Assembly (NCBI GenBank): GCA_022354845.1
Contig: CP031970.1
Location: 1 to 64,000 of the forward strand
Direction of reading: 5' to 3'
Length of the DNA: 64,000 bases
Source: Streptococcus suis
Lineage (GTDB): Bacteria; Bacillota; Bacilli; Lactobacillales; Streptococcaceae
Within the stretch, counting starts at the first letter, position 1. Each line of letters starts with the position of its first letter. The notes under the pieces were generated by a model. The model was not told the origin of the DNA, did not search any database, and saw only the letters and a program-made list of their open reading frames with translations. Positions 44,716 through 61,881 of the stretch are shown one piece after another. The translations under genes were made by a program, and so were the position numbers.

Positions 44716-46008
44716 ATGTTAACACGTTATTCACGCCCTGAGATGGCGGCTATTTGGAGTGAAGAAAACAAGTACCGGGCTTGGTTGGAGGTGGAAATCC
44801 TCGCTGATGAGGCTTGGGCTGAGTTGGGTGAGATTCCGAAGGAAGATGTGGCTTTGATTCGTGAGAAAGCGACTTTTGACATCGACCGCATTTTAGAGAT
44901 TGAAGAGGAAACTCGTCACGATGTGGTGGCTTTCACGCGTGCGGTTTCGGAAAGTCTTGGTGAGGAACGCAAGTGGGTCCACTACGGTCTGACGTCGACC
45001 GACGTGGTGGATACGGCTTACGGCTACCTCTACAAGCAGGCCAACGACATTATCCGTCGCGACCTTGAAAACTTTACCAATATCATCGCCGACAAGGCGC
45101 GTGAACACAAGTACACCATTATGATGGGGCGGACTCACGGTGTCCATGCGGAGCCAACGACCTTCGGTCTTAAGTTGGCGACTTGGTATAGCGAAATGAA
45201 ACGCAACATGGAGCGTTTTGATGTGGCGGCTAAAGGCGTTGAGGCTGGTAAAATTTCAGGTGCGGTTGGTAACTTTGCCAACATTCCTCCATTTGTGGAA
45301 GAGTATGTTTGTAGCAAATTGGGCATTCGTCCGCAGGAAATTTCGACCCAGGTCCTTCCTCGTGACCTCCACGCAGAATATTTTTCAGCCCTAGCATTGA
45401 TTGCAACGTCTATCGAGCGTATGGCGACAGAAATCCGTGGACTACAAAAATCTGAACAACGCGAAGTAGAAGAGTATTTCGCCAAAGGCCAAAAAGGTAG
45501 CTCTGCTATGCCTCATAAACGTAACCCTATCGGCTCTGAAAATATGACTGGTCTGGCTCGTGTGGTTCGTGGTCACTTGGTGACGGCTTTTGAGAATGTG
45601 GCCCTCTGGCACGAACGTGATATTTCCCACTCGTCAGCGGAGCGCATTATCACGCCGGATACGACTATCCTTATTAACTACATGCTCAATCGTTTTGGCA
45701 ATATTGTTAAGAATTTGACGGTCTTCCCTGAGAATATGAAACGCAATATGGAGTCGACTTTTGGCTTGATTTACAGCCAGCGTGTCATGCTCAGTTTGAT
45801 TGAAAAAGGTATGACGCGTGAGGAAGCCTATGACTTGGTGCAACCAAAAACGGCACAGTCTTGGGATAATCAAGTGGACTTCAAGCCTCTTCTTGAAGCG
45901 GATGAGCGCGTGACAGCTAAACTTAGTCAGAAAGAAATCGATGAACTCTTCAACCCAGACTACTATGCTAAGCGTGTGGATGATATCTTTGCTCGACTTG
46001 GATTATAA
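44716..46008 (+). CDS. purB: Adenylosuccinate lyase
   Basis: Fumarate-releasing lyase acting on SAICAR and adenylosuccinate. It is 430 residues with the superfamily signature [11 protein letters not shown] starting at G261 and an N-terminal [12 protein letters not shown]. It has its own promoter region and terminator. It is the last chromosomal-core gene before the bacteriocin island. Confidence 0.97.
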
Positions 46009-46016
46009 AAAAATCA

Positions 46017-46048
46017 AAATTCTTTGGATCTTCCAGAGAATTTTTTTT
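46017..46048 (+). terminator. Terminator after purB (copy 1 of a duplicated segment)
   Basis: AAATTCT-t-TGGA pairs with TCCA-g-AGAATTT, followed by T8. A near-identical terminator stands at 49817. Confidence 0.85.
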
Positions 46049-46055
46049 GTTTACT

Positions 46056-46063
46056 TACGAATA
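46056..46063 (+). promoter_or_regulatory. Cin-box (SigX promoter) for the circular bacteriocin operon
   Basis: TACGAATA, the consensus octamer for the competence sigma factor SigX/ComX, with a T8 run 9-16 bases upstream as in known cin promoters. It is 220 bases ahead of the bacteriocin start. A second, imperfect box TGCGAACA lies at 46137-46144. Confidence 0.75.
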
Positions 46064-46145
46064 AATAGGTGAAGGGGAAAAAAAGCTCCCAACTTATTCA
46101 AAAAAATTAATAATTTTTCAAAAAATGCAAACAATTTGCGAACAA

Positions 46146-46170
46146 TTAAGTGAGAGGGAAATTCACTTAA
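46146..46170 (+). repeat. Inverted repeat in the bacteriocin leader
   Basis: TTAAGTGA and TCACTTAA form a perfect 8-bp dyad in the 5' untranslated region of module A. It is absent from copy B. Confidence 0.6.
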
Positions 46171-46282: not shown

Positions 46283-46567
46283 ATGATGACAAAAAAGAAA
46301 GTTTCTAAACTGATGTTCCTTGCCCCAACTGCTTTAACAATGGCTGCAATACCATTTTATCAATCGGCCCAACTTGCTTCTACCTTAGGTATTAACGCAT
46401 ATGCAGCAAATAAAGTGATTGATATTGTATCTACTGCAGGGACGGTGTACGCAATTGTTGGAATTGTAGCTGCGATTGTTGGTGGAGGAGGAATAGGTGT
46501 TGCACTTCTTGCATCAGCAAAAGCACTAGCCAAACGTTACGGTAAGAGAGCCGCAGCTGCTTGGTAA
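46283..46567 (+). CDS. Circular bacteriocin precursor (enterocin NKR-5-3B/amylocyclicin-like)
   Basis: The 94-residue precursor has a predicted 30-residue leader ending YQSAQ and a 64-residue mature part starting LASTLGINAYAANKVIDIV and ending KRAAAAW. Joining L31 to W94 gives the head-to-tail ring, as in enterocin NKR-5-3B and amylocyclicin, which are also 64 residues, begin with L and end AAAW. The mature part has a hydrophobic core with a GGGG turn and a basic helix (about AKALAKRYGKR), typical of saposin-like pore formers. A second ATG follows directly; GAGAGG is the ribosome binding site. The nearest cin-box suggests competence induction. Confidence 0.9.
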   Translation: MMTKKKVSKLMFLAPTALTMAAIPFYQSAQLASTLGINAYAANKVIDIVSTAGTVYAIVGIVAAIVGGGGIGVALLASAKALAKRYGKRAAAAW

Positions 46568-46594
46568 AAAAATAGATGAGAAAGAGGGCGAGTA

Positions 46595-47737
46595 ATGCTA
46601 GTTCGTTTTTATAAATTGACTCGAATATCACAAAATAGAGAAGTAACTCTCAGAAGTGAGAATCAGTCGTTTTTTAAAATTATTTTAGTAGTGACAATCG
46701 CTCTTTTCTTTGCTTTTTTAACTACAATTTGCAATGTACAGACAGGTCTACTTGTAAATACTTTGGTATTGTATTTGTTATTAGCTTATAATTATGGTTT
46801 TACTTTGAAGGAATTCTCATTAGATAAATTCAAAGTTTATAGAACTAATAGTAGTCATAGCGCTAGATTATTTTTGTATCTATTTATGGAAAACAATCCA
46901 TTGGCAATGGCATCCATGTTATATATATTAGCGACGGTTTTAATGAATGTACAAAATCTATCAAAGGTCTTGATTATTGTTAATTCTGTGTTATTGGTAT
47001 TGATGTGGTTGGGATTGAAATTGTTATCACATTTATATTATAAGTTTCTAGGAATATGCATCGTTTTAATGATGGCTGTATGTGCTATTTGCGGTGTGAA
47101 ATTTATTACACTTCTGACAGTTATACAACTAGTCTATATAATCATTCTAGTCATGACTTTAAAAAAAGAATTACGTCTTTTTAGATTAGATATCGAAAAG
47201 TCAGATTATAAGAGTAAGCATATTCGTGGAATTACTTTATACAATTTTGTTATCCATAATATTATTGCTGAGGATTATAGAAAATCCACTGTGAAGATGC
47301 TAGGTAGTCTATTAGCAGGCCTCATCTTTTACTATATATTCCATAGTGATGGAAGTAGTATATTTCTCTTTATTTTGTTGCTAGAGTTGGAGCTACTTCT
47401 TGATAAAAAATATAAGCACCAAAGTAATTATATTTCTAAATATTATTTCTTACAAAACAGTTCTCGAAATTTACTAGAACGCTTTTTATTGTCAGAAAAT
47501 TACATAGTTAGTATTAAAATCCTTATGTGTATGTTAATTATGGGGATTGCAGGAAAAGTTCCTTTAGGGCGCTTGAGTTTCCAGACAGTGATATTCATTT
47601 TACTAGGCTTTGTATATTATTGGGCAGAGGAAAGAATGTTTGAAAAGCAGCAAAAAGTTAATAGTTTTTTATTTCAATATCTAACCTTTGTCATCTTACT
47701 TGTAACCACTTATTTAGCTTCATTTATAGGAGGATAG
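46595..47737 (+). CDS. Circular bacteriocin biosynthesis membrane protein
   Basis: The 380-residue polytopic membrane protein has roughly nine to ten hydrophobic helices and no soluble domain. Circular bacteriocin clusters carry a large hydrophobic protein straight after the precursor gene, thought to take part in cyclisation or export; position and character fit. No catalytic motif is visible. The DUF95 protein follows after 4 bases. Confidence 0.75.
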   Translation: MLVRFYKLTRISQNREVTLRSENQSFFKIILVVTIALFFAFLTTICNVQTGLLVNTLVLYLLLAYNYGFTLKEFSLDKFKVYRTNSSHSARLFLYLFMENNPLAMASMLYILATVLMNVQNLSKVLIIVNSVLLVLMWLGLKLLSHLYYKFLGICIVLMMAVCAICGVKFITLLTVIQLVYIIILVMTLKKELRLFRLDIEKSDYKSKHIRGITLYNFVIHNIIAEDYRKSTVKMLGSLLAGLIFYYIFHSDGSSIFLFILLLELELLLDKKYKHQSNYISKYYFLQNSSRNLLERFLLSENYIVSIKILMCMLIMGIAGKVPLGRLSFQTVIFILLGFVYYWAEERMFEKQQKVNSFLFQYLTFVILLVTTYLASFIGG

Positions 47738-47741
47738 CCTT

Positions 47742-48227
47742 TTGAAAGTACAATTTAAACATTTTTATAAGTGGAGTTTAGTATGGTGTTTATTTTTCAT
47801 TTTAGTATTATTTTTCTTGTCCGGTGTTGATTTTCAGATGGATTTCGGAACTATACATATTGCACAGAAGAAGACATTTGTTGAAATCTTGTTAAATAAT
47901 ACGTATAATTATTTCTTGTATTTTATTTTGTTTCCGATCAATATCGTTGTGGCGACTTATGAATTCTTGGCTTTGGCTGTCAATATTTATGCTGGTTATA
48001 AAGTGTATGGATTAGAAGAGACTATCTCATTGCTATTGCCGCACGCACTATTAGAATTGCCAAATATTCTATTTTATAGTTTTCTGTCTTTTCATATGTT
48101 TAATGCTTTTTGGAAAAATTCAAAGCTTTCGACCCTTACTCAAACAGTATTGTTGAATTGGAGATGCTATATCATAAGTTATTTAATTTTAATACTTGCA
48201 GCTTGGATAGAAGGGAATATATCATGA
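47742..48227 (+). CDS. DUF95/SpoIIM-like membrane protein of the circular bacteriocin cluster
   Basis: It is 161 residues with about four membrane helices. The NTYNYFLYFILFPIN and LLPHALLELPNI segments match the DUF95 (stage II sporulation M-like) pattern, a hallmark of circular bacteriocin loci. It likely acts in maturation/secretion with the ATPase. The start is TTG after AGGAGG. It overlaps the ATPase start (ATGA). Confidence 0.82.
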   Translation: MKVQFKHFYKWSLVWCLFFILVLFFLSGVDFQMDFGTIHIAQKKTFVEILLNNTYNYFLYFILFPINIVVATYEFLALAVNIYAGYKVYGLEETISLLLPHALLELPNILFYSFLSFHMFNAFWKNSKLSTLTQTVLLNWRCYIISYLILILAAWIEGNIS

Positions 48228-48811
48228 AAACAATCATAATAGAGGAAAAAAAACTTAGACTTAGTTCAGATCTGTCGATTGTGATAGATTCAATGGAATT
48301 ACAACCAAATATTTACTTAGTCAAGGGGAAAAATGGTTCAGGAAAGAGTGTCTTTTTGCGACATTTAGCAAAGTTAACCAAGGAATCAGAGTCATTTATT
48401 AAAAATGGTAGTCAAAATATTTTATATTTAACAAATGAAGAGGTTACATTTCCTAATTTGACCATTGAAGAGAATCTACGGATAAATCAAGATATTTTTG
48501 GTATTACAGCAAGTTTGAAAACTTCCTTATTTTTACCGGAACAATTGACAAGGCTGTGTAAGCAAGCATCTGTCGGAATGAGGCATAAAGTCGGACTGAG
48601 TCTTACAGTGGAACCTTTATTTTGGGATTTAATTATTTTGGATGAAACAATGTCGAATATAGATAGTAGTTCTCGAAAACAGGTTTTGAAAGAATTGAAC
48701 AAGCGTCGAAAGGAAGGTACAATCATCTTAATTGTTGACCACAACTTAACCGACGAAGAGACTAAGTTTAAGTGTATAGTTGTAGAAGAGGGAAAAATTT
48801 ATGAAAGATAA
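48224..48811 (+). CDS. ABC transporter ATPase of the circular bacteriocin cluster
   Basis: A short ATPase (195 residues) with Walker A GKNGSGKS (about 37-44) and Walker B LIILDE (about 144-149). The signature motif is degenerate (ASVGMRHK instead of LSGGQ). It pairs with membrane proteins of the operon for secretion and self-protection. It overlaps genes on both sides, showing tight coupling. Confidence 0.85.
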   Translation: MKTIIIEEKKLRLSSDLSIVIDSMELQPNIYLVKGKNGSGKSVFLRHLAKLTKESESFIKNGSQNILYLTNEEVTFPNLTIEENLRINQDIFGITASLKTSLFLPEQLTRLCKQASVGMRHKVGLSLTVEPLFWDLIILDETMSNIDSSSRKQVLKELNKRRKEGTIILIVDHNLTDEETKFKCIVVEEGKIYER

Positions 48812-49289
48812 ACTTCACTATTTTTTTTCAATTAGTTATTTGTTGAGTTTTACATTGCTAGTATTTCACTATATTCAGTTGGATACAACACTCTCTGCTT
48901 CACTTGAAGCATTAGGTAAATCTGCGGGTATTTCATCACGAAGTTTGAATGTATTACTTACATTTGCAACGATTGTCTTTTCATTATTGCTATACCTCAC
49001 CTATCATTATATTTTGTCAATTGTTCTGAAGAAAGTTTGCGGGAATGTTACTGAGCAACTATCAGTTGCTATTTTGGTTAGCGAAACAGTTTGTAATGTA
49101 TTTGCATTGACCTTTATTGAAGTATTGCCTAAAATATTGTTCTATATTCTAATTCCTATTCTTGGTAGTACAATTATGTACTTTGTTTTAAGAGAGAAGG
49201 CTACTAAGAAATTTACAGTTGTAGCAGTATTGGTTCGTTCGGTACTCTATTTAAGTAACGTTACAGCATTATTATTAGAATTAGTTTAG
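48801..49289 (+). CDS. Membrane protein of the circular bacteriocin cluster (possible permease or immunity)
   Basis: It is 162 residues with four to five hydrophobic helices and no known motif. It overlaps the ATPase, so it may be its membrane partner. Its place fits the small membrane components of other circular bacteriocin operons. Confidence 0.65.
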   Translation: MKDKLHYFFSISYLLSFTLLVFHYIQLDTTLSASLEALGKSAGISSRSLNVLLTFATIVFSLLLYLTYHYILSIVLKKVCGNVTEQLSVAILVSETVCNVFALTFIEVLPKILFYILIPILGSTIMYFVLREKATKKFTVVAVLVRSVLYLSNVTALLLELV

Positions 49290-49301
49290 AAAGAGGTTGT
49301 T

Positions 49302-49808
49302 ATGGAGCGAACCAGAGGATTTATTGGGTTAGTTATTTTATCAATATTAGCCATGGCATGTAGGTTGCAACAAGTATTTTTTCAAAAAGTAACTACATTA
49401 CATTTACAACTAACAGGGGATGTGGAGATTGACAAACTAATTTTAGAGAGTCAGAAATTTACTTTGAATCAAGCTGAATTTTATCAAAATAATATCAATA
49501 AATGGTTGACAATTTTGCTATTATTACTGTTGATTGGTGTACTTATTTGTTACTTAAAAGGTAAAATTTTACAAGCTAAATGGTTATATTTATCTTATAT
49601 TGTGGTGCAGTTTTTGCACGCGATATATAGATTTGTTGGGTTTAACATGATTGTAAATTCTATAAATTTTGAAGATGTTCGTCAATTTACTGTAGTAGCA
49701 ACTAATTTTAAATTTTATGGAAGTATAGTGCTATTTGTTGTATATATTGCTATAATATTAATTAGCTTATATAGAGATGTTAAGGGGAGTGAGCTTTCTC
49801 CTGTATAA
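49302..49808 (+). CDS. Membrane protein, last gene of the circular bacteriocin cluster
   Basis: It is 168 residues: an N-terminal helix (about 8-25), a soluble loop (about 26-66), then three helices. It is unrecognised. As the last gene it could be the immunity protein, although the usual circular-bacteriocin immunity protein is a shorter cationic peptide (about 50 residues), which I do not find. AAAGAGG precedes the ATG. Confidence 0.6.
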   Translation: MERTRGFIGLVILSILAMACRLQQVFFQKVTTLHLQLTGDVEIDKLILESQKFTLNQAEFYQNNINKWLTILLLLLLIGVLICYLKGKILQAKWLYLSYIVVQFLHAIYRFVGFNMIVNSINFEDVRQFTVVATNFKFYGSIVLFVVYIAIILISLYRDVKGSELSPV

Positions 49809-49816
49809 AGGATATT

Positions 49817-49951
49817 AAATTCTTTGGATCTTCCAGAGAATTTTTTTGTTTACTTGCGAATAAATAGGTGAAGGGGAAAACAAGCTCACAACTTATTCAA
49901 AAAAATTAACATTTTTTCAAAAAATGCAAATGATTTACGAATAAACAAGTG
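49817..49951 (+). repeat. 135-bp direct repeat, copy B
   Basis: Second copy of the segment at 46017-46152: same terminator (49817-49847), cin-box positions at 49855-49862 (TGCGAATA, one mismatch) and 49936-49943 (TACGAATA, perfect). It separates module A from module B. Confidence 0.9.
49936..49943 (+). promoter_or_regulatory. Cin-box (SigX promoter) for the paired 30-residue peptides
   Basis: Perfect TACGAATA, 33 bases before the first peptide start, with a T6 run (49912-49917) about 19 bases upstream. It implies a very short leader, unlike module A. Confidence 0.75.
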
Positions 49952-49976
49952 TAGGAAAAATGAAAGGAGAAAGAAT

Positions 49977-50069
49977 ATGAAGAAACTTTTTCGTCAAACA
50001 TTTGGGCGTTGTGAATTAAACTTAGGTTTTTTGAAATTTGGTTATCGTGGTAAAGTCTTCCATTGGTAA
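49977..50069 (+). CDS. 30-residue aromatic cationic peptide 1 (candidate leaderless bacteriocin)
   Basis: MKKLFRQTFGRC followed by ELNLGFLKFGYRGKVFHW. It has no double-glycine motif and no signal peptide. AAAGGAG is 7-8 bases before the ATG. The peptide is net basic with eight aromatic residues and ends in W. It shares 19 of 30 positions with the peptide encoded at 50208, including ELNxGFLKFGYxGKxFxW. The transporter and immunity-type genes downstream support an exported antimicrobial made without a leader, as in known leaderless bacteriocins, but the sequence matches none I know. One cysteine (C12) is unique to this copy. A signalling peptide is the main alternative. Confidence 0.75.
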   Translation: MKKLFRQTFGRCELNLGFLKFGYRGKVFHW

Positions 50070-50207
50070 TAATACCTGAAATACATATATTTTCTAAAAT
50101 AGTTATGAATCTGATGCTACCGAATAAGAATATAAGTATTGGTTGACTAAAATGGAAAGATTGATTTTGTCTTGTTAAATAATAAATAAAATAGATTGGA
50201 GATAAAT

Positions 50208-50300
50208 ATGCATAAATTGTTTGGAAAAATTGCTTCTCGTTTTGAACTTAATTTTGGTTTCTTAAAATTTGGGTACAAAGGCAAGAGATTCTATTGGTAA
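50208..50300 (+). CDS. 30-residue aromatic cationic peptide 2 (candidate leaderless bacteriocin)
   Basis: MHKLFGKIASRF followed by ELNFGFLKFGYKGKRFYW. Same length as peptide 1, no leader, more basic, no cysteine. TTGGAG precedes the ATG. The two genes are 138 bases apart with nothing recognisable between. Equal length and conserved C-terminal half with a variable N-terminal half suggest a duplicated pair acting together or as alternatives. Confidence 0.75.
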   Translation: MHKLFGKIASRFELNFGFLKFGYKGKRFYW

Positions 50301-50339
50301 TCATATAAAACGAAGTAAAAGTTTGGAAACAAAAGAAGT

Positions 50340-50365
50340 TAGACGTGTATCTATTTACGCGTCTA
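50340..50365 (+). terminator. Hairpin between the peptide genes and the transporter genes
   Basis: TAGACGTGTA and TACGCGTCTA form a 10-bp stem with one G-T pair and a 6-base loop. There is no strong T run. It probably lowers read-through or stabilises the peptide mRNA, giving more peptide than transporter. Confidence 0.5.
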
Positions 50366-50394
50366 GCTTAGTTTATAAAAACAGAGGAAAAGAA

Positions 50395-51144
50395 ATGAAG
50401 GAATTATTAAAACCTGTTTTTCGTTCAATTTTAAGTAAGAGAGAAATAGTATTATTTTTAATTTGTATGATATATCCGTTGATAACTGCTTTAGTCAGTA
50501 TTTTTCAAGCTGGTATTGCAAGTTACGCTGAAGGAGAACAGATTTCGTTTATCATGTTTTGGCAGATAATCGTGCATACTCAGTGGCAACTCACAATTCC
50601 AACATTATTATTAAGTTACAGTGTGATGAGTGTCTTTAGAAATGAAATTTCTTCAAAACGTCTGTTTTTATTTAAAGATATCGAAAAACCACTCATATTT
50701 AAAGCGAAGATCTATAACCTGATGAAAATTTTAGGAATTTTTATTATTGGTACATTTATCACATCATTTATTTGTTATTATGTGTTCATGTTACCTCATA
50801 ACTATATTTCAGGACATTTCTTCCCAAGTTCCCTCAAATCACTATCACATCATTTATTGATTATTTTAGCCCGTATAGCAGTATATGTTATTGTTATTCT
50901 TTTAGTAGCTAATATTTCTATACGGTATAATGTTGCAGCATCAGTGATTGGAGGGGTACTCTTTATGCTATTTTCAAATGTAGCTCCTCAATTATCGTTA
51001 GGTAAATTCTTATTCCCAACAGGGTATGCTGAGTTGGGTGGCTCAACCTTATTTGCTGTATTTGGATTAATTTTTATTAGTGGTGTCTATTGCTGCACTT
51101 TCTATTATTTAGGAATGAGGGCATTTGAAAAAATAGAATATTAG
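50395..51144 (+). CDS. ABC-2 type transporter permease (module B, first)
   Basis: It is 249 residues with six predicted helices. It shares length and local motifs with the second permease at 53052 (SKRLFLFKDI here, SKRLLLYKDI there), so the two likely form a heterodimer served by the ATPase at 52178. The frame extends upstream but the ATG at 50395 follows GAGGAAA. Likely role: self-protection against, or export of, the 30-residue peptides. Confidence 0.8.
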   Translation: MKELLKPVFRSILSKREIVLFLICMIYPLITALVSIFQAGIASYAEGEQISFIMFWQIIVHTQWQLTIPTLLLSYSVMSVFRNEISSKRLFLFKDIEKPLIFKAKIYNLMKILGIFIIGTFITSFICYYVFMLPHNYISGHFFPSSLKSLSHHLLIILARIAVYVIVILLVANISIRYNVAASVIGGVLFMLFSNVAPQLSLGKFLFPTGYAELGGSTLFAVFGLIFISGVYCCTFYYLGMRAFEKIEY

Positions 51145-51154
51145 GAGATAGTTT

Positions 51155-51742
51155 GTGAATACACATGCTAAAAATAATAAAATATTTTATTTGATAATAG
51201 TTGTTGCTCTTATTATGTTAGCTGGTTTAATAGCAAATATTGGCAATGTTGCATTAGTAATGTTGGAAATTCTACAGAATGATAGTGGTCATTTATTTGT
51301 TAAGTTAGTAGGAATGAGTACAGGATTTATTTTAATTCCCACTTTTATTTCAAAGAAAATCGGAATCGAGTTTGAAGAGGAATTGGTTCCGTTTAGCAAA
51401 AATCAGTCTATATTGATACTCGTTATCATTCTTCTGATGAATTCAATTTTTATTAAATCAGATGAAATTTTTACAGCACTGATTGTTGCAATCTGTGAGG
51501 AATACTTATTTCGATATGTCGCATTTCATATTTTATTTAAGGAATATCATACTTTTTTCACTATTATAGTGACATCATTACTTTTTGGATTATTGCTTCA
51601 TATAAATGGAGATTTTTGGTTAAATGCGATGATTAAAGTACCTGCAGGTTATCTGTTGTCTAGGGTAGGTCTGAAATTTGGTTTACAATATTCTATTGCC
51701 ATTCATTGGTTACACAATGTAGTGGTTGGAAAAATTATTTAA
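51155..51742 (+). CDS. CPBP-family intramembrane protease-like protein
   Basis: It is 195 residues with multiple helices and the CPBP (Abi) motifs: EEYLFR (glutamate pair and arginine), a histidine in LLLHING and the HWLHN motif near the end. CPBP proteins often provide bacteriocin immunity in lactic acid bacteria. The start is GTG after TAGGAG. Confidence 0.85.
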   Translation: MNTHAKNNKIFYLIIVVALIMLAGLIANIGNVALVMLEILQNDSGHLFVKLVGMSTGFILIPTFISKKIGIEFEEELVPFSKNQSILILVIILLMNSIFIKSDEIFTALIVAICEEYLFRYVAFHILFKEYHTFFTIIVTSLLFGLLLHINGDFWLNAMIKVPAGYLLSRVGLKFGLQYSIAIHWLHNVVVGKII

Positions 51743-51756
51743 GGAGAAAAATATTT

Positions 51757-52176
51757 ATGTTGTTTGTTGTTTCCATGTTATATGCTGCTTTAGTATTTAT
51801 ATCCATATCATTTTTGAGCGATATGCCCCTAATTGTTTTAGCTGGTCTTCTATATGTGTTACCACTTATCGTTAGTGTTGTTGTTACGAATAAACTGATA
51901 AAACAATCTAAGAATACAGGCATAGCGAAACTGATCATGGTACCACTATTATCACTACTATTTTATATTTCTTTTGGTATTTTTGCTGAACAAAGTGGAG
52001 AATGGCAACAATATATTTTACAAAACACAGTACAGACAAGTAATTTTACAGTGGAGGTAAGTAATTCTCTACTTTATCCTTCTCAGTTAATTTTTGCCAC
52101 AATTCTATATTTTAGTATATTTGGATTAAATTACTATTATCAGATGCATAGAAATACAACATTAGTGGAGGCATAG
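51757..52176 (+). CDS. Small polytopic membrane protein of module B
   Basis: It is 139 residues with four hydrophobic helices and a soluble loop between helices 3 and 4 (about 80-105). It is unrecognised. AAGGAG lies 10-15 bases upstream of the ATG; an upstream in-frame extension overlaps the CPBP gene and is not preferred. Probably an immunity or transporter accessory protein by context. Confidence 0.65.
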   Translation: MLFVVSMLYAALVFISISFLSDMPLIVLAGLLYVLPLIVSVVVTNKLIKQSKNTGIAKLIMVPLLSLLFYISFGIFAEQSGEWQQYILQNTVQTSNFTVEVSNSLLYPSQLIFATILYFSIFGLNYYYQMHRNTTLVEA

Positions 52177-52177
52177 T

Positions 52178-53047
52178 ATGTTAAAAATAGAGAATTTATC
52201 AAAAAGATTTTCAGGAAATGATTTTTACTCTTTAAAAGATGTGAATCTAACGATTAATCAAGGAGATATTGTAGGATTAATCGGGAAAAACGGAGCAGGA
52301 AAGTCTACTTTATTGAAGTTAATTGCAAAATCTCTAAGACCTACGGATGGGAGCATTGAGTATTTTGGACATAATATTCATCAGACGAAGCATATTCTGT
52401 CAAATTTTGGAATCATGATTGAACCAGTTTTTTATCCAGAAATGACAGTAATGGACAATTTGAAATTTTATCTAGATATTCATGGAAAAAAGGAACAATA
52501 TTCTAATATTGAGAAAACACTTCGTTTAGTTGATTTATGGGAAGCAAGAAATAGGAAACCAAAAGGGTTTTCATTTGGAATGAAACAAAGGACAGCCTTG
52601 GCTATAGCCCTGGTATCGGAGCCAGAATTCTTGTTGCTTGATGAACCATTTGTTGGACTAGATCCATTAGGAGTAAATCAATTAATTTCGATACTAAAAC
52701 AGTGGTCACAAGAACGAAATATTTCAATGATTATCTCTAGTCACCAATTAGGAGAATTAGAGGCTTTATGCAATCGTTATGTATACATTGAAGGAGGCAG
52801 GCTTGAAACGGAAATGCAGATTCAATCTGCCCCAAGTGTTATTATTCAATTGAAAGATGATTTATCAGAAGTCCAATTACCTATTGAACTGTTTGAAAGT
52901 ATCCAAGATGGCAAAATTGAGGTTACAATCGATTCGGAGGCGGATTATTTGAATCAATTAATGTACACACTATCCAGTCAAAAAGCCATTAAAAAAATTG
53001 AAATAAAAGAAAACCATTTGAAAGATTATTTTGAGATGGGAGACTAA
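52178..53047 (+). CDS. ABC transporter ATP-binding protein (module B)
   Basis: It is 289 residues with Walker A GKNGAGKST at 36-44, signature SFGMKQR and Walker B LLLDEP. The C-terminal extension (about 215-289) is usual for drug/peptide-exporting CcmA-type ATPases. It is flanked by the two ABC-2 permeases (50395 and 53052), giving a complete exporter. It starts one base after the previous stop. Confidence 0.92.
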   Translation: MLKIENLSKRFSGNDFYSLKDVNLTINQGDIVGLIGKNGAGKSTLLKLIAKSLRPTDGSIEYFGHNIHQTKHILSNFGIMIEPVFYPEMTVMDNLKFYLDIHGKKEQYSNIEKTLRLVDLWEARNRKPKGFSFGMKQRTALAIALVSEPEFLLLDEPFVGLDPLGVNQLISILKQWSQERNISMIISSHQLGELEALCNRYVYIEGGRLETEMQIQSAPSVIIQLKDDLSEVQLPIELFESIQDGKIEVTIDSEADYLNQLMYTLSSQKAIKKIEIKENHLKDYFEMGD

Positions 53048-53051
53048 AGAT

Positions 53052-53798
53052 ATGATGTTTTTTCCAGAATTACGCTCAACTTTAAGTCGTAAAGAAACCA
53101 AGATATTTCTGTCACTTTGTTTAACGCCAGTTTTATATTTGATATCAACATTGTTGAATTCTAGAATGTTCTCTTTTGCGGGCCCTGAAAATATTAAAAT
53201 CGCATTTTTTGATTTTTATTATGGCCAATTTAATCTACAGTTCAACTCGATCATCCCATCTATTGCATTAGCTTTTGTTTCAATCAGTATGATGCGTCAA
53301 GAGGTTCAATCAAAAAGACTATTATTATATAAGGATATAAGTAGATTTAAAATTCTACTGATGAAATTATTAAGTATGCTTACAGTAATTTTGATTTATA
53401 GTATAGGGTACTTTATCATTTCGCTCGGTGTGTACTATCTTCAAGTTGCACATCTGCCGTATGGGAGTTTAAATTTTTGGAGTCAAGATTTTAATTATTC
53501 TATTCTTTCAGTAATCTCAGTAATTTCGTCATATGTTATTGTTGGGGTTGTGACAAGTGTGTGTTCGCTATATTTCAGGAACGGTATTACATTAATCATT
53601 GCGTTAATCCTTAATGCATTAATGAGCATCGCAATATTCTTTCCATCATTGGCCCCATTCTTTCCGAGTGGTTATGTCACTATCTTTGAAAAATCAAATA
53701 TTACCATAGGCTGTTTAATGTTATTGGGGGTAGGTATTGTTTATTGTCTATTCTCTTATGTTGCAGGTGCATTTCGTATGAAAAATTTGGAATTTTAG
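53052..53798 (+). CDS. ABC-2 type transporter permease (module B, second)
   Basis: It is 248 residues with six helices, and is a paralogue of the first permease. ATG 53052 is chosen for the GGGAG about ten bases upstream; a longer frame overlaps the ATPase end. The exporter gene follows after four bases. Confidence 0.8.
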   Translation: MMFFPELRSTLSRKETKIFLSLCLTPVLYLISTLLNSRMFSFAGPENIKIAFFDFYYGQFNLQFNSIIPSIALAFVSISMMRQEVQSKRLLLYKDISRFKILLMKLLSMLTVILIYSIGYFIISLGVYYLQVAHLPYGSLNFWSQDFNYSILSVISVISSYVIVGVVTSVCSLYFRNGITLIIALILNALMSIAIFFPSLAPFFPSGYVTIFEKSNITIGCLMLLGVGIVYCLFSYVAGAFRMKNLEF

Positions 53799-53802
53799 TA
53801 CT

Positions 53803-55515
53803 ATGAAAAAAATAGGCAGGCTTATATATCGTCATCTGAAAAAGAATCTATTCATTTTAGGTATTTTATTAAGTATAACAGGTGTAATTTTGGGATTATT
53901 TGTACCAAAAGTTATCGGACAGTTCCTAGATCGTCACTTCCTTGTTGATTTATTGGATCATCCTATCAAACTGATTGGTTACCTTTCACTTTTTATCTTA
54001 ATTAATATAATAAAAGTTTTTGGAAACTATTTGATTTGTAGGGTTGGAAATTTGGCGATAAAGAAGGTACAAGTAACAATATATTCTGATTTGTTACACT
54101 CGGAAGTTTCTGCATTGGATAACTTTCAATCAGGGGACATTGCCAGTCGTCTAACCAATGATATGTCTGCTGTTTTAAATTTTATTACGGTAGTTCTTCC
54201 GAATTTATTCATGAATGTTCTTATTCTGCTAGGCTCAATTTATTTTCTTTGGACTATTAGTTCCTCTCTCACTCTCATGAGTCTAATGCTGATGCCTTTT
54301 ATAACGTTAGTAATGGTGCCAATGAGCTACAAATTAGAAAACAGCTATTCAAATTATCAAAAGGGTTTGGGTGAGATTTCTGGTCATATTAGTCATAAAT
54401 TTACTCATTTCCGTTTGATGAAAGCTTTTCAAGGAGAAGAATCTGAATTACATAGTATGACAGGAGCTTTTGACCGTTTAGCTCTCAGTTTTGAAAACAT
54501 AATAAAATATTCAGTTGTGCAACATTCGCTAGTTAGTAGCTTAATGATGGGATTAATTATCTTGATGTTACTTGTTGCAGGAATGGAAGTAACAAACGGA
54601 GTGATGACAATAGCAACACTAACAACCTTTGTTTTATACATGATGCAAATGATTGAACCTGTGATTGATATGGTTTCATCTTTGAATGAATTGACAGAAT
54701 TTAAAGCAATTTCTAAGAGACTGGTAGAATTATTAGAACAGAGTAAGGAAGAACAACCATTAACTGAATTGATGATTCAAGATGCTTCAATTCAATTGAA
54801 AGATGTTCATTTCTCATACAATGAAGATCAAGCATTGAATGGTCTTTCCGTGGAAATCCCTGCGGGCGCGCATGTGGCTATTGTTGGTCCAAGTGGTGCT
54901 GGGAAATCAACGATTTTTTCTTTGCTGATGAAGTTTTATGAAGATTACCAGGGAGATATTTTGATTGGTGGTCACTCGCTATCGTCAATTTCTGCAAAAC
55001 AAGTGAGAAACATGATTTCTTATATTCCACAGGACAATACGCTTTTCCATGGAACGATTAGGGAAAATCTTATATATGGTAAAAATGAAGCTGTATCGGA
55101 GGAACGAATTTGCTTTATTTTAAAAGAGTTAGGTCTCAATAAGTTAGTTTCGGAGATGGAACAAGGCTTAGATACACGGATTCTAGAAAATGGTGCAGGT
55201 CTGTCAGAGGGTCAAAAACAACGCTTAAATATTGCGAGAGCGTTGTTACTAGAGCACCCTATCTATCTTTTAGACGAAGTAACAGCAAGCTTAGATAGTG
55301 TGACGGAACACATCATTAGCAAAGCGATTGATCGTCTAACAGTTGGAAAGACACGCTTGACCATTGCTCACCGCCTACATACTGTAAAAGGAGCTGACGC
55401 TATTCTCGTCTTGGATAAAAATGGGCAGGTTTCTGATTATGGGAACCATCAACAGCTAATGACTCATAGCCATTTGTACAATGATTTTCTAAGAAACTTA
55501 CCAAATGCAAGTTAA
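53803..55515 (+). CDS. ABC exporter, fused membrane and ATPase domains (module B)
   Basis: A 570-residue half-exporter: six membrane helices (about 1-290) then an ATPase with GPSGAGKST, EGQKQR (modified signature) and LLDEVTASLD. It has no N-terminal C39 peptidase, as expected if the cargo has no double-glycine leader. Related exporters carry peptides and drugs (LmrA/MsbA type). It is the best candidate secretion pump for the 30-residue peptides. Confidence 0.88.
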   Translation: MKKIGRLIYRHLKKNLFILGILLSITGVILGLFVPKVIGQFLDRHFLVDLLDHPIKLIGYLSLFILINIIKVFGNYLICRVGNLAIKKVQVTIYSDLLHSEVSALDNFQSGDIASRLTNDMSAVLNFITVVLPNLFMNVLILLGSIYFLWTISSSLTLMSLMLMPFITLVMVPMSYKLENSYSNYQKGLGEISGHISHKFTHFRLMKAFQGEESELHSMTGAFDRLALSFENIIKYSVVQHSLVSSLMMGLIILMLLVAGMEVTNGVMTIATLTTFVLYMMQMIEPVIDMVSSLNELTEFKAISKRLVELLEQSKEEQPLTELMIQDASIQLKDVHFSYNEDQALNGLSVEIPAGAHVAIVGPSGAGKSTIFSLLMKFYEDYQGDILIGGHSLSSISAKQVRNMISYIPQDNTLFHGTIRENLIYGKNEAVSEERICFILKELGLNKLVSEMEQGLDTRILENGAGLSEGQKQRLNIARALLLEHPIYLLDEVTASLDSVTEHIISKAIDRLTVGKTRLTIAHRLHTVKGADAILVLDKNGQVSDYGNHQQLMTHSHLYNDFLRNLPNAS

Positions 55516-55621: not shown

Positions 55622-56890
55622 ATGCGAGTCAAAGATGTGGAAAGGTTGACAGGGCTGTCAACTAAGGCAATACGTCTGTATGAGGAGAAGGGATTGATTT
55701 CTGTGGAGAGAAATCCGGTCAACGATTATCGTGACTATTCAGTGGAAAATGTGCGGCAACTTCGTTTGATTAAGTTGCTCCGCTATTTCGATTTTTCTTT
55801 ATCAGAGATAGAAGAACCTTTTACATGGTCAGAAAAAGGGTTGAAATCGGCTTTGTTGAGAAAAAAGCAAGCCATCATTCAGAAGCAAGAAAGATTGACG
55901 AATAAGATTGATTTGCTAGACCAAGTAGTCAAATACTTGGGGAAGAAAGATGGTTGGCTTGAAGAAATACAGAATTCTATTACTTATGTGGAAAGCGATG
56001 ATTTCCAAGAGTTGAAAAAAGACATAGAATATGCCTTGCTACCGAGTATTTGGATGACTCTTTTGCAGACGTTCATATTATCAGGTCCGATTCTTTGGTT
56101 GTTTACAAGAATTCAACAAGGCCGCCAAGAAAATCTACTCTTACTATCTATTCTCTCGCTTTTTGCTTCCGCCTGGATAACACTCCTGTGGAGAGATTAT
56201 CTTGTGACTTGGTGGAAGAATCGGGACAAGGTTTGTAAGAAAAACCGCAGTCAAGTTTGGTGGATTCCCATAGCACTAGTTTCCCTTGTGGTCGGGATTG
56301 CCGGCTTTATCTTTGTTAGCTGGTTGACAGAAACTTTTTTTCTACCAAGTGATTGGCTCTTTTATGAGTATTCGATTGGTCTGAGTAAGGTTTTTATATT
56401 ATTTATTATGACTTTTCTTATATTACTTTTTGGAAAACTGGCGAGACTGTTGAGGCTGTCATGGAAATATCTACTTCCTCTGACAGTAAGTTGTATCTTG
56501 TTGATGGCTCTGCTAATTAGTACAACAACAGCTGTCACTAATAATCGTATTATTGAAATTAATCTGATTGTTCCGTCCAAAGAATTTGTCTACAGCGATG
56601 TTAAATCGGTCTGGACAGGATTTGGGACAAAGTTGTTTGCACTAGATGAGACTAAACGGCAGGGAACATTTAGCTACTGTATTGACCTAGATGGGGAAGA
56701 AAAAGTGTTCATGCAACCGACTGTCAATCAGAAATTAGTGTCAGATGACACCTATATTGAACTAGAAGAATTTGATCAGCGACTGATGGAATTGGGAATT
56801 TCCAAAGAAAGTTCGGCAGAAGGTAGTCAGTACAATGATTTGGATCCACATTATGTAGAGCGATTTTTACGGATTATTGAAAATAAATAG
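55622..56890 (+). CDS. MerR-family regulator fused to a membrane domain
   Basis: It is 422 residues. The N-terminal winged helix (about 1-70, VKDVERLTGLSTKAIRLYEE) is typical of MerR. A dimerising coiled coil (about 75-115) follows, then four membrane helices between about 145 and 300 and an extracellular C-terminal part of about 120 residues. This is much longer than classic MerR proteins and suggests direct sensing of a signal outside the cell or in the membrane. The gene has its own MerR-type promoter, pointing to self-activation. Its other targets are unknown; the neighbouring peptide modules are candidates. Confidence 0.85.
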   Translation: MRVKDVERLTGLSTKAIRLYEEKGLISVERNPVNDYRDYSVENVRQLRLIKLLRYFDFSLSEIEEPFTWSEKGLKSALLRKKQAIIQKQERLTNKIDLLDQVVKYLGKKDGWLEEIQNSITYVESDDFQELKKDIEYALLPSIWMTLLQTFILSGPILWLFTRIQQGRQENLLLLSILSLFASAWITLLWRDYLVTWWKNRDKVCKKNRSQVWWIPIALVSLVVGIAGFIFVSWLTETFFLPSDWLFYEYSIGLSKVFILFIMTFLILLFGKLARLLRLSWKYLLPLTVSCILLMALLISTTTAVTNNRIIEINLIVPSKEFVYSDVKSVWTGFGTKLFALDETKRQGTFSYCIDLDGEEKVFMQPTVNQKLVSDDTYIELEEFDQRLMELGISKESSAEGSQYNDLDPHYVERFLRIIENK

Positions 56891-57109: not shown

Positions 57110-57328
57110 TCATTTTTATTTATAAAATCATACATTAGAAATGAGTTGACTAGTTGACAATAACGTTATTGGTCACCCATAGTTATTAATCCAGGGTGGA
57201 AATGTGTCAGTGGCTAAGATATTAAAAAAGACAAATATATTCTCATCCTGATTATTACTTCTGTTGGGCTTAATCCTAGTTCAGCAAATAAAACTAGTAG
57301 TGATTGTTTCATTTTCCATTTTCTTTTT

Positions 57329-57336
57329 TACGAATA
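57329..57336 (+). promoter_or_regulatory. Cin-box (SigX promoter) for comA-comB
   Basis: Perfect TACGAATA preceded by a T-rich tract (TTTTCTTTTT), 52 bases before the comA start. In pneumococcus comAB belongs to the early ComE-driven class, so a SigX box here is unusual. Confidence 0.75.
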
Positions 57337-57387
57337 AATTAATTGAGGAGGCTCTTCTCAAAAATTGTGGTGAAAAAGGGAATAGGT

Positions 57388-60947: not shown

Positions 60948-61292
60948 ATACTAGTCGTGAAAGATTCCGCGCTTTGAAGTTAGTGAATTTCATTCTCATT
61001 GAGTAGTAATAAATGATATTAAGGAAAAATTGTGGTTTGTTTACGAATAATTAAAGTGAGGGAGCTATCCTTCACATGTCACAATGAATGGAAAGGAGGG
61101 GAAGGATATACTGAGGTATGTATGTAATGTGCAAGGGCGTAACATACCAAATATTTGCTTGAAAACACAATTCATCAATTCAATATCAATTAACGGGCCT
61201 CCAGTTGTCGAGTAAGATAGCTCAGAGAGCAGATTGTAATCTGATTAAAAATCAACACAGATATATTACAAATAATAAGGAGGAAAAAATAG
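60948..61292 (+). promoter_or_regulatory. Leader region of the double-glycine peptide operon, with cin-box
   Basis: Perfect cin-box TACGAATA at 61042-61049, TTTGTT just upstream. The roughly 240-base untranslated leader contains GTGAGGGA/TCCTTCAC (about 61057-61076) and GGTATGT/ACATACC (about 61115-61150) hairpins. No convincing gene; a 43-codon frame from 61084 lacks a ribosome binding site. AAGGAGG for the first peptide is at 61277-61283. Confidence 0.7.
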
Positions 61293-61472
61293 ATGTTTGG
61301 TGAATTAGAAATGAAGTATCCATTGGTAATGGATGAGCAACTACAAGATTCTTCAGGAGGTAGCATCTTTTTAGGAGTTGCAATAGCAAGTGGTGTTGCA
61401 ATTGCTGGAACCTATATTTTTGGAGCATTAGATGGTGCTTTTGAAGCGAAAGCGAAACGAAGAGGCTACTAG
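61293..61472 (+). CDS. Double-glycine bacteriocin peptide (CibA/B-like, first)
   Basis: The 59-residue precursor has a leader ending LVMDEQLQDSSGG (residues 11-23), with L at -7 and GG at -2/-1. The mature peptide is 36 residues starting SIFLGVAIASGVAIAG. It is a membrane-active helix rich in Gly/Ala with a basic end (KAKRRGY), typical of one half of a two-peptide class IIb bacteriocin. Serine at -4 instead of the usual I/V is slightly unusual. Export and cleavage by ComAB are inferred. Confidence 0.8.
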   Translation: MFGELEMKYPLVMDEQLQDSSGGSIFLGVAIASGVAIAGTYIFGALDGAFEAKAKRRGY

Positions 61473-61673
61473 ATGGGGAATATGCTGCAGTCGATTGACT
61501 TAGGGTTTCAAAAGCTGAATCAGCTTTATGATCAACAATCTCCTGTTGTAAAAATAGTTACTTTTATTGCAGGCGTTATTCTTGTATATTGCCTAGCAAC
61601 ACTGGTGTTAGGACCAGTTTATTCTGCTGGGAAAGACTTTGGTCGCTATGTTTACAATGCAATGTTTAGGTAG
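61473..61673 (+). CDS. 66-residue membrane protein of the peptide operon (candidate immunity, CibC-like)
   Basis: It starts immediately after the previous stop; AAGAGG lies upstream. One strong membrane helix (about 27-48) follows an amphipathic N-terminus. It has no double-glycine leader. Its C-terminus (YSAGKDFGRYVYNAM) closely copies the end of the peptide encoded at 61690 (YNAGKSFGRNWYNAF). Size and place fit an immunity protein such as pneumococcal CibC (about 65 residues). Alternatively it is a third, leaderless peptide. Confidence 0.7.
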   Translation: MGNMLQSIDLGFQKLNQLYDQQSPVVKIVTFIAGVILVYCLATLVLGPVYSAGKDFGRYVYNAMFR

Positions 61674-61689
61674 GAAAGGAAAATAAGCA

Positions 61690-61881
61690 ATGAATAATTT
61701 TGGAAAACTGGAAAATCAGTTCCTGTGTCTAAGTGATACTGATTTACAATATGTAAGTGGTGGTAGTTATAATTTTAAAGTTGATGTTGATAAGTTAGTA
61801 GATTATGCAACTCGAGCTTTTGGTAGTATTTATAATGCAGGAAAAAGCTTTGGTCGTAATTGGTATAATGCATTTTATTAA
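61690..61881 (+). CDS. Double-glycine bacteriocin peptide (CibA/B-like, second)
   Basis: The 63-residue precursor has a textbook leader: L(-12)S(-11), DL with L(-7), V(-4), GG(-1), cleavage after residue 25. The mature 38-residue peptide begins SYNFKVDVDKLVDYATRAFG and ends YNAGKSFGRNWYNAFY, aromatic and cationic at the C-terminus. AGGAAAGG precedes the ATG. Together with the peptide at 61293 it may form a two-peptide bacteriocin. Confidence 0.82.
   Translation: MNNFGKLENQFLCLSDTDLQYVSGGSYNFKVDVDKLVDYATRAFGSIYNAGKSFGRNWYNAFY

Follow-up and report, generated by a model that had tools for sequence, protein, structure and literature searches.

The stretch of DNA analysed here, referred to as the window, comprises 64,000 nucleotides and starts at a dnaA-like gene. 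Two small genes, designated pepA and pepB, are followed in it by six genes for transport and membrane proteins, preceded by two putative SigX boxes, and separated from a gene that we take to be purB by a circular-bacteriocin locus (Table 1).

Table 1. Features around pepA and pepB, in order along the window.
Feature	Position	Strand	Remarks
Presumed purB	44716-46008		–
Circular-bacteriocin locus	46283-49808		PF09221 and TIGR03651 over cut-off
Distal putative SigX (cin) box	49855..49862	+	TGCGAATA; 122 bp 5' of the pepA ATG
Proximal putative SigX (cin) box	49936..49943	+	TACGAATA; 41 bp 5' of the pepA ATG
pepA	49977..50069	+	MKKLFRQTFGRCELNLGFLKFGYRGKVFHW; 30 aa, leaderless cationic peptide; start ATG
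pepB	50208..50300	+	MHKLFGKIASRFELNFGFLKFGYKGKRFYW; 30 aa, leaderless cationic peptide
Hairpin between last peptide gene and transport/immunity genes	50336..50369	+	No clear U tract; z of the stretch -3.9
permA, ABC-2-like membrane subunit	50395..51144	+	249 aa; type by context, no Pfam match; conserved in cassettes; paralogous to permB
CPBP/Abi (Rce1-like) intramembrane protease, putative immunity protein	51155..51742	+	PF02517; EExxxR and HxxxN kept
MsaC-family membrane protein, putative immunity or accessory protein	51757..52176	+	139 aa; NF038270
ABC ATPase	52178..53047	+	Nearest model lantibiotic protection (LanF-type), also PmtC; below their cut-offs
permB, ABC-2-like membrane subunit	53055..53798	+	Type by context, no Pfam match
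ABC exporter, putative	53803..55515	+	570 aa; membrane and ATPase domains, no C39 peptidase (Pfam)
MerR-type regulator with membrane segments (by eye)	55622..56890	+	Link to the cassette uncertain

The two peptides are 63% identical (19/30), and a search of their own genome with pepB as the query recovered the relationship at E 1.8e-7. Each has a net charge of +6 and is hydrophilic by GRAVY (-0.32 for pepA, -0.27 for pepB), and the Shine-Dalgarno sites in front of them read AAAGGAG or GGAG. An alternative TTG start of pepB at 50196, given by the listing of open reading frames, would yield 34 aa; the ATG at 50208 is kept in L032 and L033, the loci of two other genomes in which the pair occurs. 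Among these three genomes the pepB nucleotide sequence is identical, pepA differs by 2-3 bases, and the spacer is variable (127 and 133 of 138 positions identical). The recurrence of the pair, together with the conservation of its family across two genera, argues for more than a chance similarity. Neither sequence contains GG, and hence neither has a leader of the kind that defines double-glycine class II bacteriocins and Cab peptides; with one tryptophan apiece in 30 aa they fall outside the Aureocin A53-like type (Trp-rich, about 50 aa). No Pfam or NCBIfam model matched either peptide at E ≤ 1.

Among the proteins encoded downstream, the CPBP protein of the window scored 40.1 bits against PF02517 (cut-off 22.4). 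The EExxxR motif was present in all 31 CPBP copies found in the 34 loci examined and HxxxN in 30 of them, the sole exception being truncated; for FxxxH, many copies, that of the window among them, showed no match in this form where the motif is expected. In the pneumococcal blp locus, immunity is reported to require a CAAX protease (PMC4517551, excerpt). The following protein is a member of NF038270 ("Msa family membrane protein"; 104.2 bits, cut-off 45). The ATPase resembles TIGR03740 (LanF, lantibiotic protection; 172.7 bits, cut-off 309.75) without being a member, and PmtC was its fourth-ranked model (134.6 bits, cut-off 375); because both scores lie far below the cut-offs, a role in immunity is assigned by analogy. 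Its PADLOC matches, to 44 families, were set aside as generic ATPase matches. In the product of the gene behind the exporter, a DNA-binding domain of the MerR type is joined with several membrane segments (by eye) and a further domain at the C-terminus. The gene adjoins several purB-site cassettes, and its architecture suggests an unusual one-component regulator.

The original prediction had been made from the letters of the window. The reality of its two 30-residue genes was confirmed, as were their coordinates, identity, charge, ribosome binding sites and lack of a leader, and the same holds for the CPBP protein, the two permeases of an ABC system and the peptidase-free exporter that it placed behind them. 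It did not mention MsaC and missed the promoter region with the two SigX boxes.

The constancy of EExxxR in the CPBP copies would also suit a maturase, in which case the peptides could be precursors of a modified peptide (RiPP) with a further enzyme encoded elsewhere, and their conserved C-terminal half could be the core. This is considered very unlikely, as no modification enzyme was detected among the cassette genes identified, which all encode transport and membrane proteins (flanking open reading frames were listed and scanned for enzymes in part), and no conserved leader-like N-terminus was present in a 19-sequence alignment of the family. In the reading preferred below, the peptides would be unmodified.

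With pepB as the query, strong matches (E 8.2e-5 or lower) were obtained in 6 of the 284 genomes searched in the genus, one of them the own genome, and consisted of three pairs and three single, more distant copies. Weak matches of the same search (E 0.13 and above) were inspected at eight loci, and no convincing peptide gene was found there. A profile built from the 19-sequence alignment gave strong matches in 23 of the 284 Streptococcus genomes (E below 1e-4) and in 10 of 83 genomes of a second genus (E 1.2e-8 or lower), which is read as Staphylococcus because one of its loci is 100% identical to S. equorum L121 in CPBP, MsaC and the covered part of the ATPase. The class was sampled with 398 genomes representing 145 genera, and no match at E ≤ 0.001 was found outside these two genera. 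The next Streptococcus matches of the profile (five genomes, E 0.0032-0.0035) had no open reading frame at the match and no cassette gene close by and were rejected; Streptococcus matches beyond these five and second-genus matches above E 0.06 were left out.

Altogether, 42 distinct peptides were collected. They are 26-31 aa long, carry charges of +4 to +10 and begin directly at Met, with no leader on inspection; small size, positive charge and absence of a leader or signal peptide are the general sequence features of leaderless bacteriocins. One to eight copies occur per locus, in tandem and sometimes identical. Eight copies of MAKQIKK(A/V)(P/S)KRNTINLGIISYTYTRGRH(S/A)I are found in L082, and a second cassette in the own genome, at about 161.5-167.3 kb, contains four copies of MKKQT(K/R)RNTINLGIFSYTYTRGRHSF.

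Two subgroups, window-like and KRNT, were compared by means of separate profiles (9 and 33 sequences) run against 2,666 and 2,642 short sequences, respectively. Among the best 25 matches of the window-like profile, 21 of the 33 KRNT peptides (E 2.4e-4 to 0.2) preceded the first background open reading frame (0.52). Among the best 25 of the KRNT profile, the peptide of L036 (1.3e-5), pepA (0.05), the peptide of L035 (0.06) and the L032 copy of pepA (0.2) stood out against a first background frame at 0.7; the same profile ranked pepB (E 3) and the L033 copy of pepA (5.8) behind background frames. The link between the subgroups therefore rests on the other members and on intermediate peptides in L210, L211 and L213 (e.g., MDLILKLFGLNEVNLGIVKYKYKGKKHRW in L213), and with moderate confidence both are assigned to one family. 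Two further small conserved peptides, with the motifs NKNFPRDGC and ADDS(I/V)WQE, are encoded 5' of KRNT copies (L074:3803-3991, L070:4136-4316, L071:4116-4296), and a YPRDGC ending was also noticed by eye in a short frame of L081; they are possibly signals or partners.

The peptides, their family and its gene context are real, and no entry for them was found in the libraries and papers searched. Ten further peptides of the loci (seven family members and three accompanying ones) had no NCBIfam match at E ≤ 10, and Pfam gave a sub-threshold match for one of them (DUF4236, E 0.0077). Neither PHROGs, searched with 19 family members, nor the PDB, searched with the family profile, returned a match. 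A tblastn search of plasmids with two relatives gave none at E ≤ 1, a search in which queries this short may be missed. Sequence strings in full-text papers and general searches led to no description of the family peptides; subscription literature lay outside the scope.

The peptides are closely associated with the genes downstream. NF038270 was over its cut-off in 27 of the 284 Streptococcus genomes, and all 23 peptide-bearing genomes are among these 27 (Fisher 4e-30, a p value that is overstated since the species are related). The 23 peptide loci all have the ABC ATPase and 22 of them CPBP; CPBP has been lost from L034, a copy that also lacks its start region and part of the exporter. In the second genus, CPBP and the ABC ATPase follow the peptide in 10/10 loci and a homologue of MsaC is present in 9/10. 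When 22 MsaC loci (L067-L088) were inspected, the order permA-CPBP-MsaC-ATPase-permB-exporter was complete in 18 if truncated members (L068 and L070) and a masked frame in which CPBP and MsaC are fused (L088) are included; one or more of the six genes are missing in L075, L076, L079 and L087. One to eight short basic open reading frames, listed only if preceded by a Shine-Dalgarno-like site, lie 5' of permA in 19 of these 22 loci.

Four of the 27 MsaC-positive Streptococcus genomes had no strong peptide match: the first (S. devriesei) contains a frameshifted peptide remnant, the second a broken MsaC and little else, the third neither CPBP nor a recognisable peptide, and the fourth a short CPBP but, as far as the stretch was examined, no peptide. 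In the second genus, three genomes with MsaC (G590, G315 and G331) gave no peptide match either.

The second permease and the ABC exporter are additions in most streptococcal loci. Minimal cassettes, with CPBP, the ATPase and one permease and no intact exporter, were found at five loci of the second genus (L105, L108-L110 and L112; 12 kb examined) and in L035 and L036; MsaC was over the cut-off in 6 of these 7, its frame being broken in L112. A 77-aa open reading frame of L036 looks by eye like the start of an exporter. On the reverse strand of the same locus, at about 9.6-14.1 kb, an integrase-bearing element is inserted between the peptide gene and the remaining cassette. Since the exporter is missing from the minimal cassettes, it is regarded as accessory, and the ATPase-permease complex may serve both export and protection, by analogy with Pmt and the phenol-soluble modulins (PSMs).

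These comparisons bear on the broader claims of the original prediction. Its candidate new family of leaderless bacteriocins gains support from the gene context that the homologues share, and its statement that it knew no bacteriocin family with this pattern agrees with the lack of matches in Pfam, NCBIfam and the PDB. Homologues in toxin-antitoxin or signalling loci, which it held would speak against it, were looked for; the context was instead the same, with MsaC in every peptide-bearing Streptococcus genome and CPBP plus ABC ATPase at every second-genus locus. The view of a two-peptide system was too narrow given the copy numbers, and the exporter, present in the window, is not universal.

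PSMs are leaderless short peptides, and the ABC complex PmtABCD both exports them and protects the producer. The peptides described here might likewise be surfactants or host-directed factors, with an ABC complex for export and self-protection. Such a role would fit the resemblance of the ATPase to PmtC and the retention of one ATPase and one permease in the minimal cassettes. Hydrophobic moments also revealed helical amphipathicity in the N-terminal part of most peptides (four of the five L080 peptides being the exception), whereas the streptococcal core is amphipathic in the beta sense and not helical, a trend that fails in the three staphylococcal peptides tested. The ATPase lies far below the PmtC cut-off, and the cassette contains CPBP and MsaC, which are not known from PSM loci. 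As control by competence would moreover suit predation between bacteria, a PSM-like function is judged quite unlikely.

Regarding this control, motifs of the TNCGAATA type are taken here to be SigX (cin) boxes of late competence, and their position close 5' of pepA agrees at the level of sequence with membership in the SigX regulon. Within 300 bp, a total of 19 boxes was found, distributed over 10 of 23 Streptococcus loci with peptides (expectation 0.03 per locus, none antisense), a count that is not one of independent events as the purB-site loci are related; the other 13 had no box in this range. L085 was left out of the count, its upstream sequence being too short, and a separate scan of L085 and three staphylococcal loci detected none. 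A box at -41 was present in all seven intact purB-site loci, five of which have further upstream boxes about 80 bp apart, and L069 and L086 have boxes at sites other than purB.

In the own genome, TGCGAATA also lies 28 bp before the start of dprA (TIGR00732) and TTCGAATA 27 bp before that of a comEA-like gene (PF12836), each after a T-rich stretch; coiA (PF06054) of this genome had no box. The pattern CGAATAN{3,4}AAGTG matched the genome eight times and its reversed control twice. Four of the eight matches precede pepA, dprA, a double-glycine bacteriocin-like gene and what is presumably a comFA-like gene, and behind the other four no recognised competence gene was found. Across the window TNCGAATA by itself was not enriched (13 found, 9.15 expected), so that the case for SigX rests on position and conservation. 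Based on these features, pepA and pepB are probably switched on in this strain during competence, the state of natural DNA uptake. In S. mitis, tandem SigX boxes are reported to raise expression of the Cab bacteriocins, according to an excerpt (PMC13059744).

Two further sites in the window were recorded. At 57327-57341, TTTACGAATAAA, one of three genome sites with the pattern searched, lies about 60 bp before the ATG (57391) of a comA-like transporter gene; comA is usually regarded as an early (ComE) gene. At 61042-61850, double-glycine bacteriocin-like genes stand right after comAB-like genes; the first of them (61293) is preceded, at a distance of 251 bp, by a SigX box (61042).

Other regulators occur elsewhere. 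Tests of seven proteins from five other loci identified LytTR/GHKL proteins in L068, L071 and L076 and ComR_TPR proteins in L080 and L081; no peptide was found in L076. Their proximity, the MerR-type regulator that follows the window cassette, and the shortness and leaderless form of the peptides could also be accommodated if the peptides served as extracellular pheromones or modulators that leave the cell through the ABC system and are sensed by the neighbouring regulators. Up to eight near-identical tandem copies, the positive charge and the CPBP and LanF-like neighbours argue against signalling, and ComR-type pheromones differ in being short and hydrophobic; a signalling function is therefore thought unlikely.

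A hairpin separates the last peptide gene from the transport and immunity genes. Folding of the stretch between peptide and next gene, compared with 100 shuffles, gave z values of at most -3 in 24 of 25 loci, with L068 (-1.7) as the exception; the 25 include L067, where the stretch spans a peptide gene too, and L034 and L083, which have no intact peptide. As a strong U tract is lacking, the structure is read as a boundary, an attenuator or a processing site and not as a plain terminator. A stable RNA fold 3' of very small, paired, basic open reading frames would also be in keeping with a toxin-antitoxin or other intracellular module. Membrane transport genes are the constant partners of the peptides, however, and neither an Rfam match in 49000-54000 nor a PADLOC match for the two peptides was obtained, so that an intracellular module is most improbable.

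The region between purB and the peptides provides information on the history of the site. The gene at 46283-46567 encodes a circular bacteriocin of the uberolysin/circularin A family, and TACGAATA occurs upstream of it at 46056, by which the circular bacteriocin is possibly competence-linked too. The 3.8-kb circular cassette is bracketed by the two copies of a direct repeat (46004-46152 and 49804-49951; about 150 bp), in which the purB terminator and SigX boxes are found; the repeat comprises two adjoining families with identities of 86% and 90%. As the circular locus is absent from this site in G151 and G248, where the same peptides stand directly after purB, the view that circular locus and peptide cassette form one unit was rejected. 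The flanking repeat suggests that the circular locus was inserted separately. Together with the absence from G151 and G248, it makes the purB site look like a slot in which bacteriocin cassettes are exchanged behind a competence promoter.

Based on the gene family, its association with the cassette, the tandem copies, the SigX-box sequences and the stable fold 3' of the peptides, we consider it likely that pepA and pepB represent a new family of leaderless, unmodified bacteriocins, induced by competence in this strain and accompanied by LanFEG/Pmt-like and CPBP immunity. In the mechanism proposed, both genes would be transcribed from the SigX (late-competence) promoters once cells become competent, and the transcripts would be translated directly into active peptides; the hairpin would result in more peptide than immunity and transport product. 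Export would be carried out by an ABC transporter, either the C39-free exporter or the ATPase-permease complex (the sole one left in minimal cassettes) or both. The peptides would act on the membrane of Gram-positive cells nearby that are non-competent or unrelated; the variable, basic N-terminal half would engage this membrane, and recognition of the target would fall to the conserved C-terminal half. The producer would be protected by the LanFEG/Pmt-like ABC complex together with the CPBP protease and MsaC.

A wider generalisation, for which and against which the chances appear balanced, would hold that the family is a whole class of leaderless bacteriocins not yet catalogued, the streptococcal members of which have a C-terminal core with beta-type amphipathicity, and that it is carried in Streptococcus and Staphylococcus on a portable cassette that can be placed behind any quorum or competence switch (SigX boxes, LytTR/GHKL or ComR-type regulators). 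In the present strain it would be a weapon of competence-coupled predation, used alongside the double-glycine Cib/Cab peptides or in their place. Annotation readily overlooks genes of this size, and none of the libraries searched contained a model for the family. Should the peptides prove active, they would constitute a set of simple, synthesisable antimicrobials of 26-31 aa, allow the export of leaderless peptides and the survival of their producers (CPBP, MsaC and ABC complex) to be tested cleanly, and add a new effector to the unsolved problem of how streptococci in the competent state acquire the DNA of their neighbours.

Among catalogued proteins, NF038270 covers one gene of the cassette, and the library names only this downstream protein and not the peptides. 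No relevant paper on MsaC was found in the literature searches; as the library name implies a prior look at the neighbouring gene, an earlier description elsewhere is possible. The paper on ComR paralogues concerns, in the excerpt available, a different ABC pair (PMC6703854).

The LsbB-like bacteriocins (LsbB and enterocins K1, EJ97 and Q) are similar in size, charge and hydrophilicity (about 30 aa, net +6; LsbB 30 aa, +6, GRAVY -0.68), are likewise leaderless, and also combine a less conserved N-terminal half with a conserved C-terminal half. Their C-terminal motif is KxxxGxxPWE. This motif is absent, by inspection, from the 42 distinct peptides, in which the conserved half instead reads ELNxGFLKFGYxGKxFxW, and pepA and pepB differ further in the CPBP-MsaC-LanF-like cassette and the putative competence promoter. 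For LsbB, secretion and immunity are both attributed to the ABC protein LmrB in an excerpt of one paper (PMC6131525). According to the same excerpt, aureocin A70, garvicin KS and the cereucins consist of several cationic peptides of 26-34 aa encoded together, without leaders and with conserved neighbour genes (PMC6131525). In size, charge, lack of a leader, multiple copies and conserved neighbours the present family resembles them; however, theirs are hydrophobic (GRAVY 0.15 and above; PMC6131525, excerpt), whereas 39 of the 42 peptides here have values below 0, and copies within one locus are here often near identical. With CibAB and Cab of S. pneumoniae and S. mitis the family shares SigX-box promoters, which are often tandem in those systems as well (PMC13059744, excerpt). 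The Cab peptides carry a double-glycine leader recognised by ComAB, whereas the peptides described here are leaderless and are accompanied by transporter genes of their own and by other putative immunity genes.
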